Origin: Idiomarina fontislapidosi
GTDB lineage: Bacteria > Pseudomonadota > Gammaproteobacteria > Enterobacterales > Alteromonadaceae
DNA: 64,000 bases
Reading direction: 5' to 3'
Assembly (NCBI RefSeq): GCF_003226255.1
Contig: NZ_QJST01000003.1
Location: 147,764 to 211,763 of the forward strand
The notes under the pieces are model-generated. The model did no database searches. It was given only the letters and a program-made list of their open reading frames with translations, and was not told where the DNA came from. The first letter of the stretch is position 1; every line of letters begins with the position of its first letter. The position numbers were made by a program, and so were the translations under genes. Below are positions 19,260-45,074 of the stretch, in pieces.

Positions 19260-19760
19260 ATGCGTCGTTTTCCTGGGCTCTCTTTGCGCAACCCTATCGA
19301 TTTATTGGCACTGGGTTTGGGCTCTGGTCTAGCGCCTAAAGCGCCGGGTACATTCGGTACATTAGCGGCTGTGCCATTGGTTTACGCCATGTTGCTGCTT
19401 GATGTGACAAGTTATACGGTGGTGATGCTACTGTGCACACTGGTGGGTATTTATATCTGTCGCAGTGCGGCAGATAAAATGGGCGTACATGACCACCCAG
19501 CTATCGTGTGGGACGAGTTTGTCGGATTAATGTTTACGATGTGGGCGTTGCCCGCAAACTTTGGGCTACTAGTGCTCGGATTCTTGGTTTTTCGTGTGTT
19601 TGATATTCTCAAGCCGTGGCCCATTAGTTGGCTTGATAAACGCTTGCATGGCGGGACAGGGATTATGCTAGATGATGTACTTGCTGGTGTTGCGAGTCAT
19701 ATTGTTTTGCAACTCATACTCGCAACCTCGGTCGGCAGCGACTGGCTGGCAGCCGCCTAA
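19260..19760 (+). CDS. pgpA: Phosphatidylglycerophosphatase A
   Basis: A 166-residue inner-membrane enzyme that dephosphorylates phosphatidylglycerophosphate to phosphatidylglycerol. Motifs: the N-terminal LGLGSGLAPKAPGTFGTLAA and the acidic metal-binding cluster MGVHDHPAIVWDEFVG, plus FRVFDILKPWPISWLDK and MLDDVLAGV. I use ATG 19260 (SD GGAG inside the thiL 3' end) rather than TTG 19245, which would overlap thiL. It ends the ribH-nusB-thiL-pgpA unit and faces dxs, with 9 bp between the two stop codons. Confidence 0.96.
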   Translation: MRRFPGLSLRNPIDLLALGLGSGLAPKAPGTFGTLAAVPLVYAMLLLDVTSYTVVMLLCTLVGIYICRSAADKMGVHDHPAIVWDEFVGLMFTMWALPANFGLLVLGFLVFRVFDILKPWPISWLDKRLHGGTGIMLDDVLAGVASHIVLQLILATSVGSDWLAAA

Positions 19761-28610: not shown

Positions 28611-30095
28611 TTAATGTCCAATCAAATCCTTGGCTTCACTTTGGTTATGTTCTCCAAAGCGGTCAACGATGGTGGCACTTGCTTTGTTCAGTCCGATGAC
28701 GTCAACCTCGGCACCTTCGCGTCTAAATTTAATGACTACGCGGTCGAGTGCGTTAACGGCAGTGATATCCCAAAAGTGTGCTTCGCTCAGGTCGATGACG
28801 ACTTTATCAACGCCCTCTTTAAAGTCGAACGCGGCGATAAATTTCTCAGAGGAACTGAAAAATACCTGGCCGGCGACTTTGTATGTACGACAAAATGAAG
28901 CCTCGTCTAGACTGGACGTCACAGCCATATAATGACCCACTTTATTAGCAAAGAATATAGCGGCTAATAGTACGCCGACAAAAACCCCGAGTGCTAAGTT
29001 ATGCGTCGCCACAACAACCGCAACGGTCGCCAACATAACTATGTTGGTAGACAGTGGGTGTTGTTTGAGGTTCCTAATTGAATCCCAACTGAATGTGCCG
29101 ATAGACACCATAATCATTACCGCGACCAGCGCCGCCATTGGAATTTGCTTTAACCACTCGTCTAAAAAGAGAATCAGAACAAGTAAAAATACACCGGCAA
29201 TCAAAGTCGAGAGTCGCGTGCGGCCCCCTGATTTCACATTAATAATGGATTGACCGATCATTGCACAGCCTGCCATACCGCCTAAGAGGCCTGAACCAAT
29301 GTTGGCAATACCTTGACCTTTACATTCACGGTTACGATCACTGGTGGTATCGGTAAGGTCATCGACGATGGTGGCTGTCATCAATGACTCAAGCATACCC
29401 ACTATTGCTAACCCGAGTGAATAAGGGAAAATAATGGCGAGTGTCTCAAAGTTAAGCGGTACATCGGGCCATAAAAAGACAGGTAACGTATCAGGAAGTT
29501 CGCCCATATCACCCACAGTGCGCACATCAATACCGAAGTAAATTGCGATAATGGTCAGTGAAAGGATACAAATTAACGGTGATGGCAGGATACGACCAAT
29601 CACAGGAATGTATGGAAACCCGTAGATAATTGCGAGTCCAGCGACCGTCATCACATAAACATGCCAAGTGACATTGGTGAGTTCAGGTAACTGAGCCATG
29701 AAAATAAGTATTGCCAAGGCGTTAACGAATCCGGTAACCACCGAGCGCGATACAAAGCGCATAAGTTCGCCCAACTTCAAATAGCCCGCGATTATTTGCA
29801 GCACACCGGTTAGCAAGGTAGCGGCGAGAAGGTACTCTAGCCCATGCTCTTTAACCAAGGTCACCATTAACAGTGCCATTGCACCTGTCGCCGCCGAGAT
29901 CATACCCGGACGACCGCCCGTGAACGAGATGATGACCGCGATAGCGAATGATGCGTAGAGACCGATTTTGGGATCGACGCCGGCAATTATTGAGAAAGCA
30001 ATGGCTTCAGGAATCAGCGCTAGAGCGACTACAATACCTGAAAGTACATCGCCACGCAGATTCGAGAACCAGTTTGCCTGGATAGACTTCCACAT
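28611..30095 (-). CDS. SulP-family anion transporter with STAS domain
   Basis: A 494-residue inner-membrane transporter (SLC26/SulP family) for sulfate, bicarbonate or dicarboxylates. The membrane domain carries the family signature [20 protein letters not shown] and [10 protein letters not shown] near the N-terminus, with about 10-14 helices. A C-terminal STAS domain (about 400-494) has [21 protein letters not shown] use ATG 30095 ([10 protein letters not shown]) instead of TTG 30107. The substrate is not deducible; short SulP proteins paired with a Usp include bicarbonate transporters. A PhoB-box-like repeat lies about 90 bp upstream. Confidence 0.9.
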
Positions 30096-30144
30096 AAACG
30101 TTACCAAATTAAAAATTTAATGAGATGGAGTGCATCTAGTTTGT

Positions 30145-30220
30145 ATGTCACATGTATGGAGCATGCAGTATATTTGAATGACCTGACACGTATGTGACAT
30201 TGTGGTTAAAGTTCAACCAC
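30145..30220 (-). promoter_or_regulatory. Inverted repeats and a Pho-box-like element upstream of sulP
   Basis: ATGTCACAT (30145-30153) and ATGTGACAT (30192-30200) form a perfect 9-bp inverted repeat 47 bp apart. Read on the minus strand, towards sulP, positions 30200-30183 give ATGTCAC-ATAC-GTGTCAG. This is two PhoB-type heptamers at 11-bp spacing, with 11 of 14 heptamer bases matching CTGTCAY. A further repeat, GTGGTT/AACCAC, lies at 30202-30220. The region is clearly structured, but the regulator is uncertain. Confidence 0.35.
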
Positions 30221-33841: not shown

Positions 33842-35590
33842 TTATCTTAAGATAATAATTGGGAAGGAGAACCGATAAGTTAAGCCGTGCCCCGGTTCAC
33901 TCGATGCAGTGATTTCGCCATCCAATGTTTGTGTGACCAGGTTGCGCACGATATGCGTGCCCAAGCCACTGCCACCTTGGTTTAGCTTAGTTGTAAAGAA
34001 TGGGTCAAACAGCTTTTCGAGTTGTTCTTCGTTCATACCGTGACCATTGTCAGAGTATACCACATAGAGTTTATCGGTCTGCTCATCATCGGTTGCGGTG
34101 CTGATCACGATACGCATTTCCCCTTCGCTGATCCCCTCGAAACCATGCAGTATCGAATTCATAATCAAGTTAGTAAAAATTTGCGAAAGTGCGCCCGCGG
34201 TACAGCGAACATATAAGTTATCGGGACAATCAATGATGACCCGATGGTTTTGCTTCTTAAGCTGCGGCTGCAAAGACTGCACCAAGTCACCGATATAACG
34301 CTTTAAATCAATATCGCGAACCGCGTCTGAAGTTTGGTCAACGGCAACTTGCTTAAAGCTACTGATAAGCTCGGAAGCACGGTTGAGGTTATTTTCGAGT
34401 AGTTGAATACTCTCGTGGCTCTCTTGGATGTATTTACCTAGTTGTGCCTGGGTCAGCGTTTTGTCGTTTAACATACGCTCGAGATTTTCGAGTTTTTCTT
34501 TCAAAAACGAGTTGGCCGTTACACTAATACCGATCGGGGTATTTACGTCATGCGTGATGCCTGCAACAAGGCCCCCCAATGAGGCCATTTTTTCAGACTC
34601 AATCAATTGCTGTTGAGTATTCTTTAAGTGGTCAAGGGACGCTTGTAAACGCTCGTTGGATTCCCTCAGGTTGGTTTCCATAGTTCGGCGTTGACTGATT
34701 TCTCGTTCTAATTTTTCTTGACGTATTTCTAACTCGTTTTTGCGCTGTTCAAGGTCTAACATCACCTGACTTAAACGAGATGTCTTACGTGCAACTTCCT
34801 GTTCGAGGATCGCGTTTTGCTCATCCAACTGTCGATTGGCGAGTTTAAGCTTATGCTGCGTGCGCTCAAGATCCTCTTGGTAATCCTCGATATTATCGAT
34901 CAATTGGTTATAGGCCTGCTCAATAAGCACGAGCTCATTGTGATGACGTTCATCGAGCTTGATCCGTGATGCGTCTAAGTTATCGAGTCGGAAACTATTA
35001 ATTTGGCGCGTCAGGTCATTCAATGGCTGGTTCAGCATACGTTGAAACGCAATGCTGAAGAGAATAAGTAAGAACGCGCTCTTGATAATGGCGTTACCCA
35101 CGATAAATGCCAAACTGATCTTAATGCGGTCGATGGCGATATCACGCGTGGTAAAAAGTGATACATCGCCAACGCGCGTCGAGTGACCTGAAAATTCAAA
35201 TATAAGCGCATTATAAAAGCCGAAGGTGCCATTTTGTTCTGGCAACACGTACCCTTCAGAGGCTCGTTCGGGCAAATCTTCCACTGATAGTGTCTCACCA
35301 ATTTGAATAACCGGCTTACCACTTTCGTCTCTTATTAGGACACCGGCAATCGCTGGGATGCTAATGAGGCCGTCAGCAATGGTTTCAATTTGCGGGGTGT
35401 TAAATTCCCACAACGAACGCGTTAATGAGCCATTAAAGGTGCTCTGTTGGTTTTGCAGCTCGGCTACCAACACGCGTTTAGTGTCAAAGTATTCTGCGCC
35501 AATTTGTACCGCAGTGACTGTAAGCGTCAGTAAAAAATAGACAGACAGAACGCGGGTGAGGAGCGAATAAGATATGCTTTTATAAGCCAT
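33842..35590 (-). CDS. Orphan membrane sensor histidine kinase (NtrB/HisKA-type)
   Basis: A 582-residue kinase. Helix 1 (about 9-30) and helix 2 (about 175-200) bound a periplasmic sensing domain of about 145 residues. A HAMP-like segment (PLNDLTRQINSF) and a long coiled coil (about 235-325) come next, then the H-box with H347 (AGITHDVNTPIG), an N box (NLIMNSILHG), G1 (DNGHGM), F box (LFDPFFTTK) and G2 (GSGLGTHIV). No response regulator lies next to it, so its partner is elsewhere. It is divergent from the TonB2 operon across 199 bp that holds PhoB-like repeats, and upstream of rdgC. Confidence 0.88.
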   Translation of the reverse strand: MAYKSISYSLLTRVLSVYFLLTLTVTAVQIGAEYFDTKRVLVAELQNQQSTFNGSLTRSLWEFNTPQIETIADGLISIPAIAGVLIRDESGKPVIQIGETLSVEDLPERASEGYVLPEQNGTFGFYNALIFEFSGHSTRVGDVSLFTTRDIAIDRIKISLAFIVGNAIIKSAFLLILFSIAFQRMLNQPLNDLTRQINSFRLDNLDASRIKLDERHHNELVLIEQAYNQLIDNIEDYQEDLERTQHKLKLANRQLDEQNAILEQEVARKTSRLSQVMLDLEQRKNELEIRQEKLEREISQRRTMETNLRESNERLQASLDHLKNTQQQLIESEKMASLGGLVAGITHDVNTPIGISVTANSFLKEKLENLERMLNDKTLTQAQLGKYIQESHESIQLLENNLNRASELISSFKQVAVDQTSDAVRDIDLKRYIGDLVQSLQPQLKKQNHRVIIDCPDNLYVRCTAGALSQIFTNLIMNSILHGFEGISEGEMRIVISTATDDEQTDKLYVVYSDNGHGMNEEQLEKLFDPFFTTKLNQGGSGLGTHIVRNLVTQTLDGEITASSEPGHGLTYRFSFPIIILR

Positions 35591-35676
35591 AATAAGTTAT
35601 AATTTTAACGCTGCTTACCAAGTTTAAAGAGTCTTTTTAAACTAATTCATTAGGCGAGCAGACGCAATCTTTATTC

Positions 35677-35738
35677 CTGTCACAAATATGACATATTTGC
35701 GTCATTAAGCTGTCACGAAAAATCACTAAAGTTGTCGC
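35677..35738 (+). promoter_or_regulatory. Candidate PhoB-box array upstream of the TonB2 operon
   Basis: Six heptamers lie at exact 11-bp steps: CTGTCAC (35677), ATGACAT (35688), GCGTCAT (35699), CTGTCAC (35710), AATCACT (35721) and TTGTCGC (35732), each separated by an AT-rich 4-mer. The PhoB consensus is CTGTCAT-AWAW-CTGTCAY. The pair at 35699-35716 shares the string GCGTCATTAA with the array before pstS. The DUF3450 start is 52 bp downstream. Weaker copies at 35721 and 35732 may be chance. Confidence 0.6.
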
Positions 35739-35789
35739 ATCTTTCATCTGGGTGTTTAAAAATTCACCAACCTAAGTAAAGGGTCACAT

Positions 35790-36575
35790 ATGAAGTTGCT
35801 AGCGACAAGTACAGCCATTGCGATGGCTTGCGTTCTATCAACATCGGCATTGGCACAGGATAAAACCTTAGAGCCAGTCGTTGAGAACGCCTCCGATATC
35901 AATGAGTCTGCACGCGAGGCTCAGCTCACTGTAGACAAAATCTCTGACTCCATGCAAGAGCGCATGCAGCAGTACAAGCAGATCATGAAAGAAATTGAAG
36001 GTCTGCAAGTTTACACCAACCAACTTCAAAACCAGATCAACGACCAACAGGTTGAGATGGCTGACTTGAATCAATCAATTGACCAAGTGAGCTACGTTGA
36101 ACGCCAAATCACACCGTTGATGATTCGTATGGTTGATGCACTCGATAACTTTATCGAACTTGATGTGCCGTTTTTAGAGCAAGAACGTGAAGAGCGTATT
36201 GCAGAATTGCGCGAACTGATGGGCAAAGCCAACGTCGATGTATCTGAGAAGTTCCGTCGCGTTATGGAAGCTTATCAAGTCGAAACTGATTATGGTCGTA
36301 ACATCGAAGCGTATACTGCTGAGCATTCCGTTGATGGCGATGTGCAAGACGTTACTTTTTTACGTGTAGGTCGCGTTGCGTTGATCTACAAATCACGTGA
36401 CGGTCAACACCTCGGTGTTTGGGATAACGACAGCAAACAGTGGATGGAACTTGACCAGGCTCATCGTCCAGCTGTTGAAACTGCCATCCGTATCGCACGT
36501 AAGCAGGTCGCTCCCGATATGTTGATGCTACCGCTCGTCGTGAATAAAACTGCGTCAACTAACGCTGCCGATTAA
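35790..36575 (+). CDS. DUF3450 periplasmic coiled-coil protein of the TonB2 operon
   Basis: A 261-residue exported protein: signal peptide cut near residue 22 (STSALA|QDK), then a long coiled coil (about 35-100, with VDKISDSMQERMQQYKQI) and a C-terminal domain ending LMLPLVV. It matches DUF3450, always seen beside TtpC-ExbB-ExbD-TonB. The motif VGRVALIYKSRDGQHLGVWD is typical (as VGRVALIYKSRDG). Its role is unknown; the context suggests it helps TtpC couple the ExbB-ExbD motor to the cell wall or outer membrane. It is the first gene of the operon, 11 bp before ttpC, behind a PhoB-like array. Confidence 0.87.
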   Translation: MKLLATSTAIAMACVLSTSALAQDKTLEPVVENASDINESAREAQLTVDKISDSMQERMQQYKQIMKEIEGLQVYTNQLQNQINDQQVEMADLNQSIDQVSYVERQITPLMIRMVDALDNFIELDVPFLEQEREERIAELRELMGKANVDVSEKFRRVMEAYQVETDYGRNIEAYTAEHSVDGDVQDVTFLRVGRVALIYKSRDGQHLGVWDNDSKQWMELDQAHRPAVETAIRIARKQVAPDMLMLPLVVNKTASTNAAD

Positions 36576-36586
36576 GGAGTCCCAAG

Positions 36587-37963
36587 ATGTCGATGAAACC
36601 AATGAAACTATTAATCAGCGCAGCACTAACATTAGGTTTGGTAGCTGGCGCGCAAGCGGCACCTAAACCGCAAGATCCTATCAACCTTGATCAGTTGCTT
36701 GAGCAGCTAGAGCAAGGCAAGTACGCACAGTCGGAAGAAAACAAAGCCCGCTTAGAGCGTTTCCGTCAGCAGGAGCAAGAGCAAAAGCAAATGTTGCGTG
36801 ATGCCATCGCTCAGCGTGAGGCGCTTGAACAACAGGCTTCTGATTTAGAGACACGTTTTGAAGGCAACGAGACTAAGTTAGGTAACCTTCAAGACACGTT
36901 AACGCAAAGCATGGGTTCACTGAAAGAACTGTTTGGTGTGCTTCAACAAGTCACCAACGACGCTGCTGGTAGCTTCCAAAACTCTGTTATTTCTGCGCAG
37001 TATCCAGGACGTGCTGACGAACTGAAGCAGTTATCAGAGCAAATCAGTAATTCATCTAAGCTGGCTTCTATCGAAGACATCGAGAAAGTATGGCTGGCGC
37101 TTCAGAAAGAGATGACTGAGTCAGGTAAAATTGCTGAATTCTCAGCTTCAGTCATTGAAGCCGATGGTGAGAAAGAAGTCGAAGACGTTGTACGCGTCGG
37201 TTCATTCAACCTTGTCTCTGATGGTGCGTATCTTGAGTACAACGCCAGTACAGGCAACATTGCTGAACTAGTCCGTCAGCCTGCAGGTCGTTTCACTGAA
37301 AGTGCAGAAGAATTGCAAGATGCGTCGAATGGCGTTGTGACGTTCGGCTTGGATCCAACCGGTGGTTCGATTCTTGGTTTATTAGTACAGGCGCCTAGCT
37401 TGAAAGAGCGCGTCGACCAAGGTGGTACGGTTGGTTACATCATTCTTGGCTTAGGTTTAATCGGTTTACTTATCGCACTTGAGCGTTTCGTCTCACTGAT
37501 GCTGATTGGTAACAAAGTGAAACGTCAGCTTAAAGCGCCACAGCCAAAAGAAGACAACCCATTAGGTCGTGTGATGCTTATCAAAGATAAGTTCCCTGAT
37601 GCGGATACCGAAACGCTTGAGCTTAAATTAAGCGAAGGCATCTTACGTGAAGTGCCTAAGATCACGCGTAACCTTACCTTCATCAAGATCATCTCGGTTG
37701 TCGCTCCGTTGATGGGTCTATTAGGTACGGTCACGGGTATGATTAATACCTTCCAAGCGATTACCTTGTTTGGTACTGGTGACCCGAAAATGATGGCTGG
37801 TGGTATCTCGCAAGCATTGGTAACCACAGTACTTGGTCTGGTTGTCGCAATTCCTATGACATTGTTATTCGCAATGTTGCACACACGCAGTAAAAACATG
37901 ATCCATATTTTGCAGGAGCAAGCATCAGGCATTATCGCTGAACGCTCTGAGCGAGGAGAATAG
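36587..37963 (+). CDS. ttpC: TtpC: MotA/TolQ/ExbB-family protein with extended periplasmic domain
   Basis: A 458-residue protein. A signal peptide (cut near 25, AQAA) precedes a periplasmic coiled-coil region (about 30-130) and a beta-rich segment (about 140-270). The C-terminal ExbB-like domain (about 280-450) has three helices (VGYIILGLGLIGLLIALERF; VAPLMGLLGTVTGMINTF; ALVTTVLGLVVAIPMTLLF, each under the family pattern). In Vibrio, TtpC is required for TonB2-dependent iron uptake. ATG 36587 has an SD (AAGGAG). exbB follows after 2 bp. Name by family and position. Confidence 0.88.
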   Translation: MSMKPMKLLISAALTLGLVAGAQAAPKPQDPINLDQLLEQLEQGKYAQSEENKARLERFRQQEQEQKQMLRDAIAQREALEQQASDLETRFEGNETKLGNLQDTLTQSMGSLKELFGVLQQVTNDAAGSFQNSVISAQYPGRADELKQLSEQISNSSKLASIEDIEKVWLALQKEMTESGKIAEFSASVIEADGEKEVEDVVRVGSFNLVSDGAYLEYNASTGNIAELVRQPAGRFTESAEELQDASNGVVTFGLDPTGGSILGLLVQAPSLKERVDQGGTVGYIILGLGLIGLLIALERFVSLMLIGNKVKRQLKAPQPKEDNPLGRVMLIKDKFPDADTETLELKLSEGILREVPKITRNLTFIKIISVVAPLMGLLGTVTGMINTFQAITLFGTGDPKMMAGGISQALVTTVLGLVVAIPMTLLFAMLHTRSKNMIHILQEQASGIIAERSERGE

Positions 37964-37965
37964 TC

Positions 37966-38496
37966 GTGTTATTTCTGATTGAATTCAGCAATGCGATTAG
38001 AGATTTTATCGAGGCCGGCGGGAATGTCCTGCTGGTCATCGGAATCCTAATCTTCAGCATGTGGCTGATGATACTCGAGCGAATTTTCTACTTTTTTAAT
38101 GGCCACCGCAAAGCCGTAAAAGATGCACGTAAACGTTGGAAAGCGCGTGAAGACAAATCATCTTGGAACGCGGAGCAAATTCGCCAAGCGATGATTTCTC
38201 GAGTTGCGTTGGGGTTAGGCGGTAACTTGCCAGTAATTAAGGCGTTGGTTGCCTTATGTCCGCTACTTGGCTTGATGGGTACAGTGACCGGCATGATCGA
38301 AGTGTTCGATGTGATGGCTATCACTGGTACCGGGAGTGCTCGCTCAATGGCATCGGGTGTTTCTAAAGCAACAATCCCTACTATGGCCGGTATGGTCGGA
38401 GCACTATCTGGAGTATTTGCCGCGACTTGGTTGCAACGCACAACGCGCCGCGAGCGAATGAAACTAGAAGATCGAATTTTATTGGAGCGTCACTGA
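37966..38496 (+). CDS. exbB: Biopolymer transport protein ExbB (TonB2 system)
   Basis: A 176-residue inner-membrane motor subunit that with ExbD turns proton motive force into TonB movement. Helix 1 is at about 18-38 (NVLLVIGILIFSMWLMIL) with LERIFYFF after it; helices 2 and 3 hold ALCPLLGLMGTVTGMIEVF and ATIPTMAGMVGALSGVFAA. The start is GTG 37966 behind SD GAGGAG. The gene is 2 bp after ttpC and 1 bp before exbD. The small size and its pairing with TtpC are typical of the Vibrio ExbB2 class. Confidence 0.93.
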   Translation: MLFLIEFSNAIRDFIEAGGNVLLVIGILIFSMWLMILERIFYFFNGHRKAVKDARKRWKAREDKSSWNAEQIRQAMISRVALGLGGNLPVIKALVALCPLLGLMGTVTGMIEVFDVMAITGTGSARSMASGVSKATIPTMAGMVGALSGVFAATWLQRTTRRERMKLEDRILLERH

Positions 38497-38497
38497 T

Positions 38498-38905
38498 ATG
38501 AAACAGCATTTTGCCAACTTAGTTGAAGAAGAAGAGAGCGCCATCGACATGACGCCGATGCTCGACGTGGTCTTTATCATGTTGATCTTCTTTATCGTGA
38601 CAGCCTCATTCGTGAAAGAGTCAGGTATTGATGTGAACCGCCCAGACGCGGCGACCGCGGTGCAAAAGAACCGTGCCAACATCCTTGTCGCTATCAGTGA
38701 CTCAAACGAAGTTTGGATTAACAAACGTGAAGTTGATTTGCGCGCGGTTCAAGCAAACATTGAACGTTTATATGCTGAAAATCCGCAAGGCTCAGTTGTT
38801 ATCCAAGCCGATGAAGAGTCAAATACCAAAACTCTGATTGAAGTCATGGATGCCGCGCGAGCAGCGGGCGTATTTGATGTTTCAGTAGCAACGGATGAGC
38901 AGTAA
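38498..38905 (+). CDS. exbD: Biopolymer transport protein ExbD (TonB2 system)
   Basis: A 135-residue protein with a short cytoplasmic N-terminus, one helix at about 22-42 and a periplasmic domain. The helix contains the functional aspartate in the motif DMTPMLDVVFIMLIFFIV (D of MLDVVF), as in ExbD/TolR. The periplasmic domain carries SVVIQADEESNTKTLIEVMD (as VVIQADEESNT). ATG 38498 starts 1 bp after the exbB stop, with SD GGAG in the exbB tail. tonB follows after 2 bp. Confidence 0.95.
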   Translation: MKQHFANLVEEEESAIDMTPMLDVVFIMLIFFIVTASFVKESGIDVNRPDAATAVQKNRANILVAISDSNEVWINKREVDLRAVQANIERLYAENPQGSVVIQADEESNTKTLIEVMDAARAAGVFDVSVATDEQ

Positions 38906-38907
38906 TT

Positions 38908-39510
38908 ATGAGATATATTGCCGCGCTATTAGTTGCCGCCGCTGTCACCATCGGGCTGTTTTATTTGATGCAGTCATTAATTAGCTCGGGTGAGGGCGCG
39001 ATATCGGAGCCGGTAAAGGGTAGCGTTTTGGATTTTGTGCGCACACCTGAACCTGAAGAGGTGCAGGAGAAAGAGCGTAAGCCAGAGCGCCCACCGGAGC
39101 CTGAACAGCCACCGGAAGATTTGCCTCAGCCGGACATGAGCTCAGAAGTGGATTCTGATAGCTCAGGGTCGTACGACTTCAGTGCTGATGTTAGTGCCAG
39201 TGCGGACATTGGTAACGGTGCATCACTGCAAGCCAGCGATGGTGAATATTTACCGATCGTTAAAGTACAAGCAACGTACCCACGACGCGCGCTGCAACGC
39301 GGTATCGAAGGGTATGTCGTGGTTGAGTTTACTGTGACTAAACAAGGCTCGGTGAGAAGCCCTGTTGTCGTCGAGGCAGAACCACAAGGCATCTTCGAAG
39401 ATTCAGCGATGGAAGCGGTGATGAAGTTCAAGTATAAGCCGCGTGTTATCGATGGTGAGCCGGTTGAAGTAGAAGGTGTGCGTAACCGCATGACTTTCGA
39501 AATGAATTAA
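38908..39510 (+). CDS. tonB: TonB family energy-transducing protein (TonB2)
   Basis: A 200-residue protein: an N-terminal membrane helix (about 3-26, YIAALLVAAAVTIGLFYLMQ), a Pro/Glu-rich periplasmic spacer (about 48-75), a Ser/Asp-rich stretch, and a C-terminal TonB domain (about 112-200) with YPRRALQRGIEGYVVVEF and MKFKYKPR. The spacer is short compared with TonB1 proteins, as in Vibrio TonB2. It transmits energy from ExbB-ExbD to outer-membrane receptors such as the one at 2471-4687, though the actual partners are unknown. It starts 2 bp after exbD. Confidence 0.93.
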   Translation: MRYIAALLVAAAVTIGLFYLMQSLISSGEGAISEPVKGSVLDFVRTPEPEEVQEKERKPERPPEPEQPPEDLPQPDMSSEVDSDSSGSYDFSADVSASADIGNGASLQASDGEYLPIVKVQATYPRRALQRGIEGYVVVEFTVTKQGSVRSPVVVEAEPQGIFEDSAMEAVMKFKYKPRVIDGEPVEVEGVRNRMTFEMN

Positions 39511-39523
39511 GGTGAGGTGAGCA

Positions 39524-40789
39524 ATGAAACATCTGTTATTAAGTAGCGTAATTGCTTGGGTGTTGGGAACGACACTGGTTCAACCCGTGTTGGCCCAAAG
39601 CACCGAGCGTGTGCCTGCACTACGTGAAAAAGTGTATAGCCAACTGGCTCGTGCTCAACAAGAAGCCGAAGATAACGGCGTGCAAGCCGGCTTAGCTGCG
39701 CTCAAATCGGTAGAGGAACGTGCCGATAGCATGAACAGCTACGAGCGCGCGATGCTGTGGAACTTCTACGGATACACCTACTACGATAATGAGCAAGTGG
39801 ATAAGGCAATTGAATACTTTGATAAGGTTGTTCAAGAGTCGCCCATTCCTGAGTCATTAAAAAAGAGCACATTGTTTAGCTTGGCTCAATTAAGCCTGAC
39901 TCAAGGAAATTTCGAAGAGACGTTAAGCTATTTGGATAGCTGGGAAAAAGTCGCTAATGCAGACGAGTTGAATAAAGCGTGGGTGTTAAAAGCACAAGCG
40001 TTGTATCAAGCCGAACAGTTTGCTGAGGCGCTCCCATTTATTGAGAAAGCGATTGCCGCTGCAGATAAAGAAGATAAAGCGCCGCAAGAGAACTGGTTGA
40101 TCCTTGCACGCGCTATTCACTATGAGCTTAAGCAAACTGAACAAGTAGCGGCTGTCCTTGAGCGATTAGTGAAGCTCTACAGCAAGCCGGAGTATTGGCT
40201 TCAGTTAGCGGGTGTCTTCGGTCAACTTGATCAAACTAAGAAACAACTTGCTGTACTTGAGGCGGCGAATCAACAAGGCTTTATCAATACGCCAGGTGAA
40301 CTCCGTAATTTGGCCCAGGTTTATTACATCAATCAGCTGCCGTACAAAGCCGCAAAAACGATGCAAGAAGGTTTTGACGCCGACAAGATTGAAACTAACT
40401 TGGCTAACCGCAAGTTCTACGCGCAAAGTTTGATGCAAGCCCGTGAGTATCAGCAAGCACTGGACGCCTATTTGTGGGCGGACGAAGTCAGCGAAGATGG
40501 CGAAATGTTGGCTCAAGCGGCTCATGTTGCGCTTAACTTAGATGAAAACGAACGTGCTACAACGCTTGCCAAAAAGGCGCTCGATAAGGGCGAAGTGCGT
40601 AATGAAGGCAACTTGTGGTTATTGCAGGGCATGGCTGCGGTGAACCAGCGCGAGTACAAGCAAGCGGTTGAATCTTTTGAGAAAGCGATTGAGTTCCCAG
40701 AGAGTAAAGCAGCCGCTCAACAGTGGCAACGTTATGCAAAAAGCCAAGTTGACTATCAAGCGCGTGTTAACGAAACCGCAATGAATTAG
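39524..40789 (+). CDS. Periplasmic tetratricopeptide-repeat protein of the TonB2 operon
   Basis: A 421-residue exported protein. The signal peptide is cut near residue 24 (PVLA|QST). The rest is helical TPR-like repeats (for example AMLWNFYGYTYYDNEQVDKAIEYFDKV, seen as FYGYTYYDNEQVDKAI, and LLQGMAAVNQREYKQAVESF). TPR proteins scaffold complexes; homologues end TonB2/TtpC operons in many marine gammaproteobacteria. Its likely place is the periplasm beside TtpC, TonB or DUF3450, but no partner is proven. It lies 13 bp after tonB and is the last gene; no clear terminator follows. Confidence 0.85.
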   Translation: MKHLLLSSVIAWVLGTTLVQPVLAQSTERVPALREKVYSQLARAQQEAEDNGVQAGLAALKSVEERADSMNSYERAMLWNFYGYTYYDNEQVDKAIEYFDKVVQESPIPESLKKSTLFSLAQLSLTQGNFEETLSYLDSWEKVANADELNKAWVLKAQALYQAEQFAEALPFIEKAIAAADKEDKAPQENWLILARAIHYELKQTEQVAAVLERLVKLYSKPEYWLQLAGVFGQLDQTKKQLAVLEAANQQGFINTPGELRNLAQVYYINQLPYKAAKTMQEGFDADKIETNLANRKFYAQSLMQAREYQQALDAYLWADEVSEDGEMLAQAAHVALNLDENERATTLAKKALDKGEVRNEGNLWLLQGMAAVNQREYKQAVESFEKAIEFPESKAAAQQWQRYAKSQVDYQARVNETAMN

Positions 40790-40827
40790 TCACACTTTTG
40801 CAATAAAAGGTACATAAAGTAAGAAAA

Positions 40828-40845
40828 CTGTAATAAAATCTACAC
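40828..40845 (+). promoter_or_regulatory. Weak PhoB-box-like sequence upstream of the porin
   Basis: CTGTAAT-AAAA-TCTACAC: the first heptamer matches the PhoB half-site CTGTCAT at six of seven bases with an ideal AT spacer, but the second matches at only three. The porin start lies about 90 bp downstream. Its place beside phoBR and pst makes PhoB control plausible, not shown. Confidence 0.3.
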
Positions 40846-40934
40846 GATGTTTTAATTAAACATTCATTTTCACGCGTGGTTCACGGTAGACATCGTAGAC
40901 TGCGCCAATGACTGAAAACAATCGTGTGGATTTT

Positions 40935-41867
40935 ATGCTTCGTTACGTTTTATGTGCAGCACTCATGTGTGGCTCGGTGAGCGCACTCGCTGACACCCAA
41001 AGTGATGCGTTAACTGTTTATGGCCGCGCAAACGTGGGCCTGCTTTACAGTGACATTGCTGATCAAGATGATACGGAAGTCAAAAGCTATACATCCCGCT
41101 TTGGCTTAAAAGGTCAACAGAACCTCGATAATAACCTCGAAGTTTTCTATCAATTTGAGTGGGGCGTCGACCTCGCAGGCTTTGATGAGGACGACTCCAT
41201 AAGTGATCGTAACCAAATCGTTGGTTTACGTGGCGACTTTGGTACTGTCATGCTGGGCCGTTACGATACCTTCCTGAAAGACTCTCAAGGCGCTATTGAC
41301 CAGTTCAAAGACTATACCGCAGACCTTAAGTACTTGTTCGAAGGTGAAGTTCGCGCTGATAACAGTCTGACTTATTACTCGCCCGCCTATAAAGGCTTCA
41401 AACTGGGCTTTACCTACGTATTTTCGGACGATGATAGTATAGACGACGGTCAATCGTTTGGCCTCATTTACGGGGATGAAAAGCTCAAAAAGAGTAACGT
41501 TTATGCCGCGTTAGCATTTGATAACGAAGTGGACGGCTTTGATATCGTACAACTTTCCGTTGCCACTAAAGTCACTGGTTTTAAGTTAGGTTTTGCTGCA
41601 CAAGATTATCGGTCAGTAGATGGCTTAATCAGCGCCCAGGGCGTTTTGTTGAGTGCCGCTAAACGCTATGGCGCATGGGTGCCTAAGGTTCAGTATCAAG
41701 TTATTAAAGATGATGAGCGAGATCATTCGATCTCTATCGGCAGTGATTACTACCTCGGTGATAACACACGTTTGTTTGCCTTTTACACCGCTCGTAACCG
41801 CGACATTCAGCAGCAGATAACAGAAGACTACCTTTCTGTTGGTATACGCCACGATTTTTCTTGGTAA
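40935..41867 (+). CDS. Gram-negative general porin (trimeric, 16-strand type)
   Basis: A 310-residue outer-membrane porin. I use ATG 40935 because MLRYVLCAALMCGSVSALA|DTQ is a clean signal peptide; the upstream in-frame ATG 40908 would add nine polar residues. Mature features: LTVYGRANVGLLYSD at strand 1, RFGLKGQQNLDNNLEVFYQFEWG (as RFGLKG and VFYQFEWG), VGLRGDFGTVMLGRYDTFLKD with the loop-3 region, and a C-terminal strand YLSVGIRHDFSW ending in Trp instead of the more common Phe. It lies just before phoBR-pst and may pass phosphate or phosphorylated compounds under phosphate limitation; that is inference. Confidence 0.88.
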   Translation: MLRYVLCAALMCGSVSALADTQSDALTVYGRANVGLLYSDIADQDDTEVKSYTSRFGLKGQQNLDNNLEVFYQFEWGVDLAGFDEDDSISDRNQIVGLRGDFGTVMLGRYDTFLKDSQGAIDQFKDYTADLKYLFEGEVRADNSLTYYSPAYKGFKLGFTYVFSDDDSIDDGQSFGLIYGDEKLKKSNVYAALAFDNEVDGFDIVQLSVATKVTGFKLGFAAQDYRSVDGLISAQGVLLSAAKRYGAWVPKVQYQVIKDDERDHSISIGSDYYLGDNTRLFAFYTARNRDIQQQITEDYLSVGIRHDFSW

Positions 41868-42865: not shown

Positions 42866-42905
42866 ACTCGTGACAATGTCACAAAAGTGACCTAGTTTAA
42901 TAAAA

Positions 42906-42963: not shown

Positions 42964-43650
42964 ATGCCGCGTAGAATTCTCATAGTAGAAGATGAAGCAC
43001 CTATTCGCGAAATGCTGAGTTTTGTTATGGAGCAGCACGGCTATCAAGCCGTAGAAGCAAAAGATTACGACAGTGGTCTTGCCAAAATTGCCGAACCTTA
43101 TCCCGATATGGTTTTGTTAGATTGGATGCTACCCGGTGGTTCAGGTATTCAGTTAGCTAGAAAGATTAAAAGCGATGACTTCACACGTAATATCCCGATT
43201 ATTATGCTGACTGCGCGTGGCGAAGAAGAAGATAAAGTACGTGGACTTGAAGTCGGTGCCGACGATTACATTACCAAACCGTTTTCACCAAAAGAGTTAA
43301 TGGCTCGGATGCGTGCGGTATTCCGCCGCGTTGCACCAACGGTACTTGATGAACCGTTAGAAATTGAAGGCTTAAAACTCGATCCAGTTTCCCATCGTAT
43401 TTCGACACAAGACCACAGTATCGATATGGGGCCAACCGAGTTTAAACTGCTACACTTTTTTATGACTCACCCAGAGCGCGTCTATAGCCGTGAACAGCTG
43501 CTAGACCAAGTCTGGGGTACAAATGTTTACGTTGAAGACCGCACTGTTGATGTGCATATTCGTCGCTTACGCAAAGCATTGCATGAGCATGGTTACGATC
43601 GTTTAATTCAAACGGTACGTGGCGTCGGCTATCGCTTTTCAAGCCGGTAA
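42964..43650 (+). CDS. phoB: Phosphate regulon response regulator PhoB
   Basis: A 228-residue OmpR-type response regulator activated at low phosphate. The receiver domain (1-120) has E9-D10-E11, phosphoacceptor D53 (VLLDWMLPG) and K105 (YITKPF). The winged-helix domain (about 128-226) has [31 protein letters not shown] (as [12 protein letters not shown] and [11 protein letters not shown]) and [12 protein letters not shown]-like [15 protein letters not shown], the DNA-recognition helix. Length equals E. coli PhoB (229). phoR follows after 10 bp. Confidence 0.98.
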
Positions 43651-43660
43651 TTAGACGTTT

Positions 43661-44968
43661 ATGGATAGGGAATACAGCAGCTTTGGTGCGCTTAAAGGAT
43701 TAGTACTTTATTTGTTGCCCTTTGCCATTATTGGCGCCATATTGGGCATCTTTTGGCAGGCGATGTCCCTATCCATGGCTGGCCTCTTGGTCTGGCATTA
43801 TTATTACCAACAAAAGCTCACCGATTGGCTTTGGAATAGCCGCAACATGATGCCTCCGACTGCGCCTGGCAGTTGGTCTTATATCTACGATGGCATCTAC
43901 CGAAATCAGCGTCGTAGCCAACAGCGTCGTCGCTCTCTTGCACAGTTGTTACGCCGTTTCCGTGAAGCCGCCGAGGCACTGCCTGATGCCGCTATCGTGT
44001 TTCGTCGCGATGGTTCTTTACTGTGGAGTAACCAGCTCGCACAGTTTTACTTTGGCTTGAAGTGGCCCGATGATGCGGGGATGCGTTTATCAAACTTAAT
44101 TCGCCACCCGGAATTTTTCAGCTATTTGAGTAAAGGTAACTTCGAGGAAGCGCTTACCATACCCTCGCCGGCACGTGATTCGCTTGATATCGAAATTCGC
44201 GTCATGCCTTACAGTGATGATCAGTACTTACTCGTTGCGCGTGACGTCACGCAAATTAAGCAGTTGGATAACTTGCGAAAAGATTTTGTGGCCAATGTCT
44301 CGCACGAATTGAAAACACCTTTGACGGTGCTGCAAGGCTATCTCGAGATGGTGGAAGACCCGTCTATGACGCCGCCCGGTATGATGACTAAGGCGGTGGG
44401 TGAAATGCAGCGTCAAAGTGAGCGCATGCGCTTGCTTATTGACCAGTTATTGGAGCTTTCCCGCATGGAGACGCCTTCTCATGACGTGTTTGATCGCGTT
44501 GTCGATGCGCCGGTGCTGCTGCAACAACTGCAAACCGAGGCCGAGAAGCTAGGTAAAGCAAAATCGATTAACGTTCATTTTGATATCGCACCGATTAAAG
44601 TTTACGGCAAAGAGGATGCGCTAAGAAGCGCTATGCAGAACCTCATCACTAACGCGATTCGATATAACCACGAAGGCGGTGATATCAGAGTGACGTGGCA
44701 AATGGTGGGCAGTGAAGTTGAGTTCAGTGTTGAGGATACCGGACCCGGTATCGCGTCTGAGCACTTACCTCGTTTGACCGAGCGCTTTTATCGCGTTGAT
44801 AAAGATAGAAACAGTGAGCGAGGCGGCACCGGGTTGGGTCTGTCTATCGTTAAACAGGCACTGCAACATCATAACTGCGAATTGCAAGTTAACAGTGCGT
44901 TAGGTAAAGGTTCGCGCTTTTGGTTTAGGTTGCCGGCGGGATTGAGAGTTACAAATAAGCGTCATTAA
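43661..44968 (+). CDS. phoR: Phosphate regulon sensor histidine kinase PhoR
   Basis: A 435-residue membrane kinase/phosphatase for PhoB. The N-terminus has two close helices (about 10-50) with almost no periplasmic loop, as usual for PhoR, followed by a basic stretch (RNQRRSQQRRRSL). A PAS domain spans about 95-200, then the H-box with H215 (FVANVSHELKTPLT), N box (QNLITNAIRYN), G1 (VEDTGPGI), F box (ERFYRVD) and G2 (GGTGLGLSIVK). It senses phosphate through the PstSCAB-PhoU complex encoded just downstream. Its stop codon overlaps the first element of the pstS Pho-box cluster. Confidence 0.97.
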   Translation: MDREYSSFGALKGLVLYLLPFAIIGAILGIFWQAMSLSMAGLLVWHYYYQQKLTDWLWNSRNMMPPTAPGSWSYIYDGIYRNQRRSQQRRRSLAQLLRRFREAAEALPDAAIVFRRDGSLLWSNQLAQFYFGLKWPDDAGMRLSNLIRHPEFFSYLSKGNFEEALTIPSPARDSLDIEIRVMPYSDDQYLLVARDVTQIKQLDNLRKDFVANVSHELKTPLTVLQGYLEMVEDPSMTPPGMMTKAVGEMQRQSERMRLLIDQLLELSRMETPSHDVFDRVVDAPVLLQQLQTEAEKLGKAKSINVHFDIAPIKVYGKEDALRSAMQNLITNAIRYNHEGGDIRVTWQMVGSEVEFSVEDTGPGIASEHLPRLTERFYRVDKDRNSERGGTGLGLSIVKQALQHHNCELQVNSALGKGSRFWFRLPAGLRVTNKRH

Positions 44969-45018
44969 ACTGACTTTTTTTTGTCATAATTGTCATTAAA
45001 CTGTCACACAATTCTCAT
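44959..45018 (+). promoter_or_regulatory. Pho-box cluster upstream of pstS
   Basis: Heptamers in two 11-bp-phased sets: GCGTCAT (44959), CTGACTT (44970), TTGTCAT (44981); and TTGTCAT (44990), CTGTCAC (45001), TTCTCAT (45012). The core TTGTCAT-TAAA-CTGTCAC at 44990-45007 matches the PhoB consensus at nearly every position. pstS starts 57 bp after the cluster. This is the best Pho box in the window. Confidence 0.85.
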
Positions 45019-45074
45019 AAACTGCTATCAATCCGATCAACTCGTTTCGTGACGGTCACGTAAGGATAAACACC

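Follow-up and report, generated by a model that had tools for sequence, protein, structure and literature searches.

The region in front of the DUF3450-TtpC operon of Idiomarina fontislapidosi is very probably a PhoB-activated promoter of a second TonB2-type energiser, which in turn most likely powers Pho-controlled receptors, in the first place a conserved pair of surface lipoprotein and TonB-dependent receptor. That this operon (hereafter the ttp operon) stands under Pho control is a conclusion in which, judging from genome comparison, we place high confidence; PhoB would bind the array described below and low phosphate would induce the operon. All positions refer to the window, i.e. the whole stretch of 64,000 nucleotides analysed.

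The ttp operon consists of six genes on the plus strand, assigned by Pfam: a DUF3450 protein (TtpD-like, 35790-36575), TtpC (36587-37963, assigned also by tree), ExbB (MotA/ExbB, 37966-38496), ExbD (38498-38905), TonB (TonB_C, 38908-39510) and a TPR protein (TtpB-like, 39524-40789). TtpC combines a DUF3450-like N-terminal part with a MotA/TolQ/ExbB domain, the DUF3450 match before this domain being weak. Equating the DUF3450 protein with TtpD and the TPR protein with TtpB is our own reading of PMC6957404. The host genome possesses a second ttp operon on contig C7, with 44% identity between the two TtpC proteins. When 38 TtpC proteins were placed in a tree, the window-type sequences (21 rows) came out as one side of a branch with 100/100 support. 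Given this separate clade and the 44% identity, the window operon is of TtpC type but not the ortholog of the second copy.

The array in front of the operon is composed of four half-sites on the plus strand, CTGTCAC (35677-35683), ATGACAT (35688-35694), GCGTCAT (35699-35705) and the promoter-proximal CTGTCAC (35710-35716), delimited by the window letters and an alignment of the genus; the second of them carries its TGTCA half-site on the minus strand. As in a pho box, 7-bp direct repeats are separated by 4-bp AT-rich spacers, giving a period of 11 bp. The TGTCA match summed over four consecutive units amounts to 18/20, a value that did not come up when the intergenic region was dinucleotide-shuffled 5000 times, and the sum over six units (22/30) came up once in 5000; neither sum occurs a second time in the window when both strands are scanned. 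The array is beyond chance. A previous sequence-only reading of this DNA had listed six heptamers at exact 11-bp steps from 35677, and letters, positions and steps are all as it gave them. Its observation that the array before pstS shares GCGTCATTAA with the ttp array is equally correct, the second copy being located at 44959.

The description of the array as six-part was nevertheless not borne out. Units 5 (AATCACT at 35721) and 6 (TTGTCGC at 35732) were rejected as repeats because they fall on the spacer, on the -10 hexamer TAAAGT and on the bases 3' of it: unit 5, made of spacer and the first T of the hexamer, matches none of the five TGTCA core bases. Across the genus alignment of the ttp promoter, which has 15 distinct rows from 19 genomes, units 2 to 4 hardly vary in their cores and unit 1 reads TGTCA or TGACA in 17/19; the latter, which is TGTCA on the other strand and is found in unit 2, occupies unit 1 in 10/19. 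Unit 6 is TTGTCGC in 6/19 and TTGCCAC, TCGCCAC or TCGCCAT in 10/19. What remains are four units (35677-35716), that is two tandem pho boxes, plus a -10 element.

This predicted -10 hexamer (TAAAGT, 35727-35732, plus strand) begins 10 nt after the last TGTCAC, in the register of pstS promoters. No sigma-70 pair of -35 and -10 elements was found on the plus strand in a scan of 35500-41000, and the box takes the place of a -35 at a fixed gap of 10 nt to the -10, again as in known pho boxes. Strict spacing between pho box and core promoter is needed according to the available part of PMC10294691.

For scoring we used a weight matrix trained exclusively on 29 pstS promoters, the 34-mer version of which covers the 18-bp pho box, the spacer and the -10; after weighting, the 18-mer rested on an effective 4.8 sequences and the 34-mer on 14.3. 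Within the window, the 34-mer exceeds 14 at four places: two before pstS (37.1 and 14.4), the ttp array (16.8, beginning at half-site 3) and a site before a SulP-type permease gene (15.6). A matrix built on pst promoters does recognise the ttp site, a check that the sequence-only reading had proposed, with a score far below that of the reference promoter of pstS (44990-45023, plus strand, 37.1). A pho box of 18-mer score 13.7 precedes phoB (42876-42893, plus strand, with a register match at 42877), which points to probable autoregulation. Independently of any matrix, the register was described by the pattern TGT[CA]A[TC]-N10-TANNNT. Both the N10 pattern and the -10 portion of the seed for the 34-mer were picked after promoters had been seen. 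One locus, L060, where no box was seen, did not enter the training of the matrix and is still counted among the 30 pstS promoters examined for the register.

Conservation was followed in two sets. The relatives set comprises 40 genomes (the host genome and its relatives), 23 of them with a window-type operon; the wider set holds the best 80 of 559 confirmed loci in named genomes. Among these best 80 of 559, the closest are Idiomarina sp. MD25a (98%) and I. baltica (96%), and the genera include Idiomarina, Pseudidiomarina, Alteromonas, Pseudoalteromonas, Glaciecola, Salinimonas, Bowmanella, Lacimicrobium, Catenovulum, Rheinheimera and others. Seven Idiomarina genomes are common to the 23 relatives and the 80 loci, so the counts overlap. 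The complete gene set ttpD-ttpC-exbB-exbD-tonB-ttpB was detected by tblastn in all of the best 80 of 559 loci.

In the relatives set, all 23 window-type ttp promoters resemble the pst boxes of the same lineage, with 34-mer scores of 16.4-27.7; in several of them the best-scoring register falls on another unit of the array. Promoters of the second copies score at most 1.5 (n=20, after L229 had been dropped from 21), and those of other ttp operons (L024-L030, n=7) between -9.9 and 3.6. The best 80 of 559 loci reach at least 14 in 50 cases and at least 10 in 57, the former consisting of 45/47 loci outside Pseudoalteromonas and 5/33 within this genus. Pseudoalteromonas arrays keep four units in 11-bp phase, yet their matrix scores are low because the middle two have diverged (often to NGACTT or TGTATT, then GCGCAAC). 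These promoters are the weakest part of the case for Pho control. Control ORF upstreams of the best 80 of 559 loci score at least 14 in 20 of 608 cases, every one of them before pstS, pstC, phoB or the lipoprotein gene (as identified by sequence and tblastn), and four more fall between 10 and 14.

The register pattern is present in 23/23 relatives and in 75 of the best 80 of 559 loci, including all 33 from Pseudoalteromonas; the five misses are L147, L160, L164, L195 and L211. It is found in 24/30 pstS promoters, in 10/587 control upstreams and in neither the 20 second-copy nor the seven other ttp promoters. When the gap was varied from 5 to 15 with 10 excepted, the maximum among the best 80 of 559 loci was 17/80, at gap 7. 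As the pattern had been picked after the promoters had been seen, this sweep and the controls are its safeguard. Related genomes do show the phased repeats (at least 14 in 50/80, register in 75/80); the second TtpC operon has neither box nor register (0/20). Comparison gives good support to the proposal of the sequence-only reading that the ttp operon is part of the Pho response. Good Fur boxes are lacking in most promoters of both ttp types, where the best matches are 10-12 of 19, with one window-type promoter at 15; the comparison does not set the two types apart.

Next to the operon lie genes of the Pho system itself. The presumed activator gene phoB (ORF 42964-43650, plus strand) is matched once per genome, at E<=1e-60, in 37/40 genomes of the relatives set, and is followed by an ORF named phoR, for a sensor kinase, from context and sequence (43661-44968, plus strand). 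In all 19 genomes of the genus, ttpC, phoB and pstS are located on one contig within about 10 kb. Of the best 80 of 559 loci, 28 contain phoB, phoR or pstS in the examined flank, among them 16/18 from Alteromonas, and in L192, L194 and L206 the gene order is phoB-phoR-pstS-lipoprotein-receptor-ttp operon. Among the non-Pseudoalteromonas loci of the best 80 of 559 which lack pho genes in the examined flank, 17/19 still score at least 14, so the ttp box is not merely riding with pho genes.

On its other side, at a distance of 87 bp, the array faces a divergently transcribed sensor kinase gene (33842-35590, minus strand) with an HATPase_c domain and a CHASE5 match below cut-off. A divergent promoter for the kinase was considered and rejected, the best divergent 34-mer being 6.0. 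Relatives of this kinase adjoin the module elsewhere, either divergent before phoB (L168, L194) or before the lipoprotein gene (Pseudidiomarina, e.g. L143). No partner regulator was seen beside the kinase gene.

Near the ttp operon, 67 of the best 80 of 559 loci encode a receptor that has a relative in the host genome. It adjoins a lipoprotein beginning much like MELKxLFKxSAIAxALxLAGCGGDINI, with the lipobox LAGC at residues 18-21, and itself has TonB-dependent receptor domains. Among the best 80 of 559 loci, the pair is situated downstream of the operon in Pseudoalteromonas and mostly upstream elsewhere, and it is not near the operon in the seven Idiomarina loci. In the host genome it resides on contig C12, away from the ttp operon, and has a pho box of its own (19.6). 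Among relatives, the promoter of the lipoprotein gene shows the N10 register in 20/21 cases, and 19/21 score at least 14 with the 34-mer. In the wider set the lipoprotein start was missed in 9/67 loci by one rule and a second rule gave 66 scored loci (from the best 80 of 559), of which 60 show the register. At E 1e-60 or better, the receptor is found in 22/23 genomes with window-type ttpC versus 2/17 without it. The exceptional genome, G014, a member of the genus, lacks the receptor and has an in-frame stop in ttpC and a shortened DUF3450 open frame, a pattern that looks like joint decay of the module.

By its fold the lipoprotein seems to be a beta-helix surface protein, and with its receptor it resembles ElpS and the receptor beside it. 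A profile search found relatives of the lipoprotein in 30/299 genomes of the phylum. In one locus of ten, L320 from another class, lipoprotein and receptor are followed by type II secretion system (T2SS) genes (Secretin, T2SSF, T2SSG, T2SSL). Searching solved structures with the lipoprotein profile gave no match at E 0.01, and the two lipoproteins tried against NCBIfam had none. The model of the Glaciecola protein (L206) has a mean pLDDT of 81.6, and its fold search returned weak matches to right-handed beta-helices, the best being a polygalacturonase (E 3e-4, TM 0.17); because these matches are weak, we accept only the fold class.

These data can be put together in the following model. Two tandem pho boxes (35677-35716) would take the role of the -35, with exactly 10 nt between their end and the -10 (35727-35732). 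When phosphate is scarce, the phosphorylated form of PhoB, whose gene lies 7 kb downstream, would occupy the boxes and recruit RNA polymerase, leading to transcription of DUF3450(ttpD)-ttpC-exbB-exbD-tonB-TPR(ttpB). Lipoprotein and receptor would catch a phosphorus-bearing compound at the cell surface, and a private TtpC-type TonB motor, made in response to the same inducing signal, would drive it through the outer membrane. We lean towards the ttp motor being in dedicated service to the pair; the window TonB would then couple to the lipoprotein-linked receptor, and phosphorus compounds would be imported.

With Pho control taken as real, the main rival to the dedicated-service half of this model is that the motor forms a general reserve for whatever receptors are present. 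The host genome offers 32 receptor plug matches versus just two for TonB_C that exceed the family cut-off, other receptors (two Oar-like and one beside a phytase) have pho-like boxes as well, which makes more than one cargo likely, and the lipoprotein/receptor pair of this genome does not adjoin the ttp operon. Against a reserve of this sort speak the closeness of the operon to one receptor pair in 67 of the best 80 of 559 loci and the distribution that the two share (22/23 versus 2/17 genomes), and we rate it as rather doubtful.

Alternatives to Pho control itself fare considerably worse than dedicated service of the motor. Tandem direct repeats are bound by many OmpR-family regulators, and with TGACA and CGTCA variants among its half-sites the array might be used by another member of the family that recognises 11-bp direct repeats. 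It would then be hard to see why a matrix built on pstS alone picks the ttp site among four window places above 14, why all 20 control upstreams scoring at least 14 around the best 80 of 559 loci precede genes of the Pho module, and why the -10 register coincides with the one before pstS; such a regulator is very unlikely. TonB motors are discussed mostly for iron, and the operon could be an ordinary iron TonB2 system, with boxes that in fact serve the adjacent Pho genes or the divergent kinase gene, before which the array stands at 87 bp. The six-gene TonB2 system known from Vibrio vulnificus does serve siderophores, according to the available text of PMC6957404. We find this possibility hardly credible in our case, since window-type TtpC is a separate clade, the box persists in the absence of flanking pho genes (17/19 non-Pseudoalteromonas loci of the best 80 of 559), and the -10 register points into the operon, with 6.0 as the best divergent score.

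Returning to a Pho-controlled motor serving the pair, alteromonads could own a complete Pho-controlled phosphorus importer made of a beta-helix lipoprotein at the surface, the TonB-dependent receptor that goes with it and a six-part TonB motor of its own, an idea we advance tentatively. If true, phosphorus-bearing polymers could be scavenged without competing with iron uptake for TonB, and the system would be a gammaproteobacterial counterpart of the Bacteroidota Pus systems, with a TtpC-type motor dedicated to phosphorus. Idiomarina, Pseudidiomarina, Alteromonas, Pseudoalteromonas and relatives share this motor clade, which has a predicted pho-box promoter of its own and usually lies near the receptor pair. 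Which motor drives outer-membrane phosphorus import in marine heterotrophs thereby becomes a question open to direct testing, and a role is suggested for those second TtpC systems that do not work for iron.

Several elements of the model are already known: PhoB-controlled TonB genes from Pseudomonas, and Pho-controlled receptors or lipoproteins from Caulobacter and Flavobacterium. A close case is the PUMA3 regulon promoter of Pseudomonas aeruginosa (phdA-pdtB-exbB2D2-tonB4), which, as predicted for the window promoter, drives a Pho-controlled TonB motor operon; exbB2D2-tonB4 is induced at low phosphate and needs PhoB and a pho box as well as the sigma factor VreI. Its pho box sits upstream of a -35 region, whereas the window boxes replace the -35, and the accessible part of the paper names no TtpC, DUF3450 or TPR genes, the partners being PdtA and PdtB instead (PMC4971064). 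The V. vulnificus TonB2 system has the same six components (TonB, ExbB, ExbD, TtpB, TtpC, TtpD) but is iron-regulated and serves siderophores, a likeness by description and not by Vibrio sequence. Its TonB3 system, compared in the same manner, has six components, no iron-transport activity and a receptor gene at the start of the operon, and is reported to be active in serum or minimal medium with glycerol (PMC6957404, available portion).

On the receptor side, Caulobacter crescentus has ElpS, a low-phosphate surface lipoprotein, encoded beside the TonB-dependent receptor CC0171 and T2SS genes (PMC2996285, PMC11208175, both in part). The order in L320 matches this elpS-cc0171-gsp layout (PMC2996285, partial text), a likeness of layout and not of Caulobacter sequence. 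The PhoB regulon of Caulobacter includes receptors, a phytase and T2SS; no TonB motor is mentioned together with the pair, the words 'exbB' and 'exbD' being absent from the text of PMC11208175 examined. Pus clusters of Flavobacterium johnsoniae likewise unite a low-phosphate receptor with a surface lipoprotein, and the low-phosphate lipoproteins FI/FII of Flavobacterium are described as polygalacturonase-like and related to the Caulobacter one. They belong to another phylum, and the accessible text describes no dedicated TonB motor (PMC8115612). A literature search, mostly by title and abstract and short of most subscription papers, yielded no report of a Pho-controlled TtpC-type operon and none of a TonB motor beside an ElpS-type pair.

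Pho-like promoters were also encountered elsewhere in the genome and genus. Pho boxes before receptors in general were rejected: few of the 30 receptor loci scored (of 32 matches) carry one, the forward 34-mer reaching at least 10 in two (L105 10.9, L118 14.4) and the inverted 18-mer 16.2 in one (L109), and one of the two remaining loci has 16.2. A phytase gene (PF02333) stands beside a TonB-dependent receptor gene on contig C2 (L127, 1323-5715) with an inverted pho box (18-mer 16.2), and the inverted box reaches at least 16 in 5/9 receptor loci of the genus. On contig C14 (L217, 923-9033), a gene of the exonuclease/endonuclease/phosphatase family is divergent from two Oar-like receptors with promoter scores of 16.2 and 14.4. 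The SulP-type permease gene of the window (28611-30107, minus strand), named by sequence, has its pho-like box at 30200 (minus strand, 34-mer 15.6), which in two close relatives scores only 9.7 and 10.5. Five Idiomarina loci (L138-L142) have a second pho-like promoter behind pstS and before pstC, at about 19570-19691 on the plus strand (34-mer 19.9-23.7). A pho-like promoter precedes gspC (T2SSC), the first T2SS gene (C4:18886-19764 in the host genome and its kin L335-L350); with 20 of 24 rows scored, it reaches at least 14 in 14/16 loci of the genus and 0/4 outside it, the N10 register being present in only 1/16. This parallels Caulobacter, where the PhoB regulon takes in the T2SS (PMC11208175). 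Finally, a PhoD-type phosphatase gene on contig C2 (L218, 4890-6638) has a pho-like promoter with a 34-mer score of 19.8.
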